A DNA stretch of 56,740 bases, from positions 14,366 through 71,105 of the forward strand of contig JALHRL010000023.1 in NCBI GenBank assembly GCA_022841465.1, read 5' to 3'. Shown piece by piece: positions 39,610-41,954 of the stretch (positions within the stretch are counted from its first letter, which is position 1; each line of letters starts with the position of its first letter). A program made the translations under genes and the position numbers. Under the pieces are notes generated by a model. That model was not told where the DNA came from. It made no database searches and saw only the letters and a program-made list of their open reading frames with translations. The stretch is from Bacteroidia bacterium. Lineage in GTDB: Bacteria > Bacteroidota > Bacteroidia > B-17B0 > Aurantibacillaceae.

Positions 39610-40467
39610 CTAATGATACTGATTAAAAATTTCCCAGCTTTGTGTATAGCTTTTTTCTAATTCAGTAAAATTTAATCCTAAATTAATGTTTTTATGCTTG
39701 GCGTATAATTCAATATCTTGAGTAGCAATATTACCCGTTAACGAATCTGCCGCCATAGGGCAACCGCCAAACCCGTGTATTGCTGAATCAAATCTTCTGC
39801 AACCACTTTCGTAAGCTGCTTTAATTTTTTCCTGTGCGTTTTGTTTGGTAGAATGTAAATGTGCGCCAAGTTCTACGCCTTTTAATTCAGGAATTAAAGA
39901 AGTAAAAAGGTGGGTTATGTTTTCAGGAGTAGAGCAACCAATTGTATCGGCAAGAGCTACTATTTGTATTCCGCGTTTACTTAATTCTTTACTCCATTTA
40001 ATTACAATTTCGGGGTTCCAATCATCTCCATAAGGATTACCAAAAGCCATAGAGATATATACCACTAATTTTTTATTGTGTTTTATACAAAGGTTTTGAA
40101 TTTCATCTACTCTTATTAAAGATTCGGCAATACTTGAATTGGTGTTGCGTTGCTGAAAAGTTTCTGAGATTGAAAAAGGAAAACCCAAATATGTTATTTC
40201 CTCAAAATTACAGGCATCTTCTGCTCCACGGGTATTGGCAATTATGGCTAATAATTTAGATGAGGTGGAAGATAAATTTAATTGTTTTAAAACTGTTGCA
40301 GTATCTTGAAGTTGTGGAATGGCTTTAGCAGAAACAAAACTTCCAAAATCTATGGTATCAAAACCAACTTTTAATAATTGGTTAATGTAATTTATTTTTA
40401 TTTCTGTAGGTATAAATTCTTTTATGCCTTGCATGGCATCACGCGGACATTCAATTAATTTAAGCAT
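39610..40467 (-). CDS. Hydroxymethylglutaryl-CoA lyase
   Basis: The 285-residue TIM-barrel protein belongs to the HMGL-like family: ECPRDAMQGIKEFIPT at the N-terminus holds the catalytic Arg-Asp pair, VGFDTIDFGSFVS follows, GAHLHSTKQNA gives the metal-binding HxH and GFGGCPMAADS the mobile Cys loop. HMG-CoA lyase splits HMG-CoA to acetyl-CoA and acetoacetate in leucine degradation. The homologous pyruvate-carboxyltransferase families look similar, but the GGCPMA loop favours HMG-CoA lyase. It begins one base after pyrD ends. Confidence 0.9.
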   Translation of the reverse strand: MLKLIECPRDAMQGIKEFIPTEIKINYINQLLKVGFDTIDFGSFVSAKAIPQLQDTATVLKQLNLSSTSSKLLAIIANTRGAEDACNFEEITYLGFPFSISETFQQRNTNSSIAESLIRVDEIQNLCIKHNKKLVVYISMAFGNPYGDDWNPEIVIKWSKELSKRGIQIVALADTIGCSTPENITHLFTSLIPELKGVELGAHLHSTKQNAQEKIKAAYESGCRRFDSAIHGFGGCPMAADSLTGNIATQDIELYAKHKNINLGLNFTELEKSYTQSWEIFNQYH

Positions 40468-41576: not shown

Positions 41577-41609
41577 TTTGTATTTGTTAACAAAAAACAT
41601 ATATATTTG
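41577..41609 (+). promoter_or_regulatory. Promoter of the small helical lipoprotein gene
   Basis: TTTG at 41577-41580 and TATATTTG at 41602-41609 are 21 bases apart, a full match to the Bacteroidota consensus. The ATG is 25 bases further on. A second TTTG at 41583-41586 is too close to be the -33 element. Confidence 0.65.
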
Positions 41610-41634
41610 CTCCACATTAAACTAAAAAATCAAA

Positions 41635-41901
41635 ATGAAAAAAGTGTTATCTATCGTTGCTGTTGCTGCAATTTCTGCAACATTTGTAGCTTGTGGTCCT
41701 TCAAAAGAAGAAATCGAAGCTGCTGAAAAGAGAAAAGCTGATTCTATTGCTGCTGTTGACAAACAAAAGCAAGATTCTATTTTAGCTGCTGAAGCTGAAT
41801 TAGAAAGACAAGCTGCTGAAGCTGCTGAAAAAATGAAGCAAGACTCTATTCGTGTTGCTGATTCATTAGCTGCTGCAACTAAAGGTGGTAAGAAGAAATA
41901 A
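41635..41901 (+). CDS. Small helical lipoprotein (Lpp-like in architecture)
   Basis: The 88-residue product has a lipoprotein signal with lipobox FVAC (Cys20) and a mature part of 69 residues that is almost entirely charged and alanine-rich helix. DSI triplets recur at 36, 47 and 70, with hydrophobic positions at 27, 38 and 49, an 11-residue spacing expected for a coiled coil. It ends GGKKK. It has its own consensus promoter and terminator, so it is probably an abundant single-gene product. The layout recalls Braun lipoprotein, but sequence similarity is not evident and no function is known. Confidence 0.8.
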   Translation: MKKVLSIVAVAAISATFVACGPSKEEIEAAEKRKADSIAAVDKQKQDSILAAEAELERQAAEAAEKMKQDSIRVADSLAAATKGGKKK

Positions 41902-41927
41902 TCCTTCTTAACCATTTAAGAAAATTA

Positions 41928-41954
41928 AAACCCCGATATAGTCGGGGTTTTTTT
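41928..41954 (+). terminator. Intrinsic terminator of the small lipoprotein gene
   Basis: Arms AAACCCCGA (41928-41936) and TCGGGGTTT (41942-41950) with a five-base loop and a following T run. It lies 26 bases past the stop codon. Confidence 0.88.

Follow-up and report, generated by a model that had tools for sequence, protein, structure and literature searches.

The general O-glycosylation system of Bacteroidota targets a short motif composed of aspartate, serine or threonine, and a third residue from the set A/I/L/V/M/T; replacement of the aspartate by glutamate is described as not tolerated in B. fragilis, and later work widens the third position by S, G, C and F (cited sections of PMC8729774 and PMC12871550). 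In the cited sections of PMC12871550, the motif is reported to be almost fully occupied in the species studied, and the role of O-glycosylation in the phylum is still described as largely unknown. With regard to lipoproteins attached to the wall, DpaA frees Lpp in E. coli and is also found in species that lack Lpp, and the attachment of LimB runs through an internal lysine, according to the portion of PMC8263019 cited here. For lipoproteins displayed on the surface of Capnocytophaga canimorsus, the portion of PMC5080379 cited here gives K-(D/E)2 near the cysteine as the minimal export signal, with C-X-K-(D/E)2 as the optimum and weaker export when KDD is placed at other distances from the cysteine.

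Here we describe an 88-residue lipoprotein encoded in a 56,740-nucleotide stretch of a Bacteroidia genome (the window; the genome it comes from is referred to as the source genome). With the general O-glycoproteins of Bacteroidota this protein shares the phylum, predicted export, the sequon and the enrichment of sequons in the exported proteins of its genome, but it has no folded domain and is far denser in sequons, with 4 in 69 mature residues or 5.8 per 100, compared to a maximum of 2.53 in a sample of source-genome genes. A group of SPOR-domain lipoproteins from other Bacteroidota resembles the window protein in the signal peptide, the CGPS-x-EE motif and the first of the DS units, but has the SPOR domain at the C-terminus, where the window protein has its basic tip. 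The likeness to Braun lipoprotein, on which the initial annotation was built, is an analogy only. The small size, the single long predicted helix, the lysine-rich end and the presence of an own promoter and terminator all stand, and the argument from the terminal lysine is weakened (see below). The differences from Lpp are the sequons, a terminal residue that is K or H across the family, the lack of a recognizable LdtA/B/C-type enzyme in the source genome and, as the initial annotation also noted, the lack of a sequence match: the Pfam search returned no family, LPP included, at E<=1. A weak match to the PG1828 family lipoproteins of NCBIfam (NF050142) across residues 1-46 was rejected as unspecific (a score of 21.9 bits where 50 are required, with 21 weak source-genome matches at E<=1), the curated cut-off being exceeded in 0 of 21 genomes; searches of PHROGs and PDB gave marginal matches only. 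Among the open-access articles searched, judged by title and start of abstract, we found no paper on the family.

The gene, its expression signals and its distribution

The features of the locus, in window positions, are as follows.

41577-41580, plus strand: promoter -33 element TTTG, Bacteroidetes type, 21 nt ahead of TATATTTG
41602-41609, plus strand: promoter -7 element TATATTTG, corresponding to TAnnTTTG at -29 to -44 in the relatives
41635-41901, plus strand: coding sequence of the 88-residue lipoprotein, stop codon included
41635-41691, plus strand: signal peptide, residues 1-19 (MKK, hydrophobic core, FVA before the cysteine)
41692-41694, plus strand: predicted lipidation site Cys20, which opens the module CGPSKEE (C20-E26 constant in 48/48 aligned members)
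41740-41748, plus strand: candidate O-glycosylation sequon 1, DSI, residues 36-38 (D and S constant in 48/48; third residue I/L/V/A/T)
41773-41781, plus strand: candidate sequon 2, DSI, residues 47-49 (D and S constant in 48/48; third residue I/L/M/V/T)
41842-41850, plus strand: candidate sequon 3, DSI, residues 70-72 (D and S constant in 48/48; third residue T/A/I/L)
41860-41868, plus strand: candidate sequon 4, DSL, residues 76-78 (D and S constant in 48/48; third residue L/V/I/T/M)
41884-41898, plus strand: polybasic C-terminal tip GGKKK, residues 84-88 (the family's proteins end in K or H)
41927-41951, plus strand: intrinsic terminator hairpin, with T's to about 41955

The gene is real: it has a promoter, its codons are well adapted and a hairpin terminator of its own follows it. 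The initial description of an 88-residue lipoprotein with a signal peptide and a lipobox ending at Cys20, and with GGKKK at its C-terminus, holds for the plus-strand ORF 41635-41901. An antisense ORF (97 aa, 41622-41915, minus strand) covers the entire gene and is probably a by-product of the alanine-rich codons of the lipoprotein.

The consensus of Bacteroidetes promoters is TTTG / TAnnTTTG. The promoter, initially called perfect, fits this type (TTTG, 21 nt, TATATTTG) but not sigma-70, a reading that was rejected given that the sigma-70 scan gave no plus-strand match here and a single overlapping 9/12 match on the minus strand. Of 56 upstream regions from relatives, a set that also takes in the doubtful L100 and L104, which lies outside the family, 51 carry TAnnTTTG at a distance of 29-44 nt from the start codon, compared to 6% of single-base shuffles with this element anywhere in 110 nt. 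The own terminator proposed initially is borne out by sequence and fold (a hairpin followed by T's), although a simple terminator scan gave this hairpin in the minus-strand direction only; judged by eye, similar hairpins lie 3' of most relatives' genes. The CAI of the gene is 0.79 (reference set, 27 ribosomal-operon genes), which exceeds that of 353 of the 354 background genes (mean 0.63); the codon match is imperfect, with GCT accounting for 18 of the 21 alanine codons and GCA being used somewhat more in ribosomal genes. Given the promoter and the CAI, the lipoprotein is likely to be highly expressed, so that this part of the initial annotation gains indirect support.

A relative of the lipoprotein was matched in 85 of the 87 genomes of the window's taxonomic family, the only family of its order covered by the genome set. 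The matches reach E<=1e-15 in 77 of these genomes, and the eight others match solely at levels at which a shorter paralogue type scores as well; G007 and G044 gave no match. In an even draw across the phylum, 27 of 395 genomes, the source genome among them, matched at E<=1e-4. An upstream pyrD in divergent orientation is present at 67 of the 79 loci, corresponding to 47 of 58 distinct proteins, the 79 loci including several cases of one genome taken twice, some incomplete loci and the non-member L104. An operon with the downstream SBP5 gene was rejected, with an SBP5 match in 5 of the 79 loci and the hairpin in between.

Altogether 103 proteins were extracted from the loci, two of which were incomplete and dropped; removal of L104 and of identical copies left 74 distinct proteins, namely 55 of the window type (including the window's own and the doubtful L100 and L105), 18 of the paralogue type and L080, which belongs to neither. 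The paralogue type, present in the source genome and in others, starts with CGPSAEEK and mostly ends in EAAH, with a C-terminal His in 14 of the 18 distinct proteins; the source-genome example (L002, G000:C1:7806-8009, minus strand) is rich in DS/DT sequons. One genome carries the lipoprotein gene twice inside 1.1 kb (G084:C7:94616-95692), and second copies may also exist at L073 and L085.

The DS units and the predicted helix

The initial annotation read the DSI units only as elements of a helical repeat and missed their match to the Bacteroidota O-glycosylation sequon. Among the 55 distinct window-type proteins, which are related so that the count is inflated by kinship, DS is followed by A/I/L/M/V/T in 221 of 221 cases, compared to 44% of mature residues in the background; for DS/DT in the 18 paralogue-type proteins, the corresponding figures are 70 of 70 and 48%. 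Exactly four sequons are present in 52 of the 55 window-type proteins, with 4.0 sequons per protein on average as opposed to 0.20 in shuffles, and glutamate precedes S/T in four cases among the 55. For the 48 members whose sites can be aligned by column (those of the other 7 among the 55 cannot), a tree shows 0 changes in the eight D and S columns, compared to a mean of 7.1 in the other helix columns, whereas the third-position columns of sites 1-4 changed 6, 5, 16 and 16 times (43), always within A/I/L/M/V/T.

The source genome shows the enrichment of sequons in exported proteins that is typical of the phylum. For a sample of 418 genes from the window and 20 further stretches, called heuristically and sorted by simple rules, the observed to expected ratio of sequons is 1.94 for signal-peptide proteins (n=99), 2.11 for lipoproteins (n=19), 1.44 for membrane proteins (n=75) and 1.12 for cytoplasmic proteins (n=225). 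The lipoprotein itself is missing from this sample, in which the longer antisense ORF was called instead. The second-densest gene is of the cytoplasmic type (window positions 39610-40467, 5 sequons in 285 aa), so that single sequon-dense proteins can be due to chance. Conservation of the sites is a stronger argument than density. Given four conserved sites in a protein whose export is indicated by its signal peptide, D-[ST]-[AILMVT] sequons of the general O-glycosylation system of Bacteroidota are the best explanation of the DSI units, and the lipoprotein is very probably O-glycosylated.

The monomer model (mean pLDDT 69.6, pTM 0.33) predicts one helix, residues 24-83, in agreement, at moderate confidence, with the single helix of about 60 residues proposed initially. 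The 11-residue period ascribed to the DSI units applies to the first interval (D36-D47, 11) but not to the subsequent ones (D47-D70, 23; D70-D76, 6). The units could, in principle, be purely structural and unglycosylated, serving hendecad coiled-coil packing: in its first half, the helix carries a hydrophobic stripe with an 11-residue step (columns 27, 38 and 49), the best period for residues 24-53 being 3.64, and packing could partly explain the third-position preference at sites 1 and 2 because these lie on the stripe. Packing, however, leaves invariant D and S combined with turnover of the third residue unexplained; site 3 has T or A in third position in 39 of 48 members; and the spacing between sites 2 and 3, which ranges from 21 to 26 among the 48 and changed about 11 times along the tree, breaks any fixed register. 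This purely structural explanation thus appears highly improbable. With regard to an Lpp-like trimeric coiled coil, the same variation in spacing argues against a fixed register, so that a rigid register of the Lpp kind along the full length of the rod is doubtful.

Taken as glycosylation sites, the four near-invariant sequons on a helix leave little else in the 69 mature residues, which would make the lipoprotein an unusually clean test object for O-glycosylation, the more so in view of its family-wide conservation and probable high expression.

The basic C-terminus and possible contact with the wall

The initial annotation likened the terminal lysines to those of Lpp, which is tied to peptidoglycan through its last lysine. 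Of the 55 distinct window-type proteins, 38 terminate in K and 17 in H, with about 9 changes on the tree of 48, which weakens the argument, whereas K87 is invariant (48/48) and K86 nearly so (47/48). Under a Braun-type scheme, an L,D-transpeptidase would join a terminal or near-terminal lysine to meso-diaminopimelate. The size, the helix and the near-invariant K86 and K87 are compatible with such a tether, as are the occurrence of DpaA in species without Lpp and the linkage of LimB via an internal lysine (cited portion of PMC8263019). Only two YkuD proteins were found in the source genome, one resembling the L,D-transpeptidase YcbB and the other a DpaA/YafK-like amidase. They also speak for this scheme, although both score below the NCBIfam curated cut-offs (for the latter, L107, G000:C12:10220-10804, minus strand, 149 bits against 365) and neither matches an LdtA/B/C-type model.

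Among the 87 family genomes, 75 have a YkuD match (PF03734, E<=0.001) and 67 a DpaA match (NF040599, E<=1e-15), thresholds below which weaker candidates would fall. At these thresholds, eight genomes have neither (G006, G007, G017, G029, G035, G040, G063 and G066), and all of these except G007 keep the lipoprotein; the genomes that do so include four at least 92% complete (G040, 100%; G017 and G063, 99%; G066, 92%). The reverse case is G044 (85% complete), with a DpaA match and no match for the lipoprotein. Given that 7 of the 8 genomes without a match to either enzyme retain the lipoprotein, covalent attachment by way of YkuD/DpaA proteins is unlikely as its general function, although it may take place in some species, and the lipoprotein might be a substrate of the DpaA homologues where these are present. 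Together with the 17 proteins that end in His and the lack of an LdtA/B/C-type enzyme, this makes the Braun-type tether improbable as an explanation of the family.

A sugar-decorated spacer rod appears more likely than a copy of the classical Lpp tether. After export and lipidation at Cys20, as suggested by the lipobox, glycans would be transferred in the periplasm to Ser37, Ser48, Ser71 and Ser77, as suggested by the sequons; the protein would be anchored in the outer membrane, with the rod probably on the periplasmic side; and the helix of about 60 residues, some 90 angstrom long in the model if straight, would form a glycan-coated spacer. The lysine-rich tip could then rest on the anionic peptidoglycan, no covalent bond being needed. 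The best reading, the chances of which we consider evenly balanced, is that of a probably abundant helical spacer, anchored in the outer membrane, O-glycosylated at four conserved sites and equipped with a polybasic tip; contact of such a spacer with peptidoglycan is conceivable but somewhat less probable.

Orientation at the outer membrane

The SPOR domain binds peptidoglycan. With an hhalign probability of 98.5, residues 1-43 of the lipoprotein match the N-terminal part of 12 SPOR-domain lipoproteins, the 12 rows having been picked for carrying SPOR and the 43 columns including the signal peptide. These proteins come from a set of 26 distant loci (L108-L133), taken from the matching genomes of the phylum draw other than the source genome, 21 of which were scanned for domains (all except L114, L121, L122, L123 and L131), yielding 12 proteins with SPOR, 2 with Fasciclin, 1 with DUF1573 (L126) and 6 small proteins. 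The six small members (L108-L111, L116 and L120) have 4-5 sequons in a different arrangement and a basic end. In the SPOR proteins, lipoproteins of another Bacteroidota family (L113, L115, L117-L119, L124, L125, L127-L130 and L132), CGPSEEE and a stalk of DS units are joined to the SPOR domain; in L112 and L133, a similar stalk is joined to a Fasciclin domain, and these two could face either side of the membrane.

The N-terminal module shared with SPOR lipoproteins favors the periplasmic side, and we consider it moderately probable that the lipoprotein faces the periplasm. Alternatively, the glycosylated rod could be flipped outward by the K-E-E signal and form a thin sugar coat on the cell surface. 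The constancy of C20GPSKEE in 48 of 48 members fits such a stalk, as does K-(D/E)2 near the cysteine as the minimal export signal in C. canimorsus (cited portion of PMC5080379). The lysine of CGPSKEE, however, is at +5 rather than +3, so that the LES pattern C-X-K-(D/E)2-X is absent, and KDD at distances other than the optimum C-X-K-(D/E)2 is exported less according to the same source; moreover, the SPOR-domain lipoproteins begin with the similar CGPSEEE. A displaced or lineage-specific export signal may nevertheless be present in CGPSKEE; for a calibration of such a signal on SusD, the source genome gave no SusD match. On balance, a surface-displayed glycan stalk appears rather unlikely.

A broader and more speculative proposal, to which we assign a low probability, is that the lipoprotein is the Bacteroidota analogue of Lpp: an abundant helical lipoprotein, O-glycosylated four-fold, the coat and tip of which would set the spacing between outer membrane and peptidoglycan without a fixed covalent link, the N-terminal module being reused for SPOR domains. 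For bacteria that lack Lpp, the protein is also a candidate spacer or connector between the outer membrane and the wall.

A further sequence closely resembling the start of the lipoprotein was noticed in the source genome, in L003, a YidC-like protein as judged by eye, where SGPSKEQIARNKFVRDSIATVEK directly follows the first hydrophobic segment.
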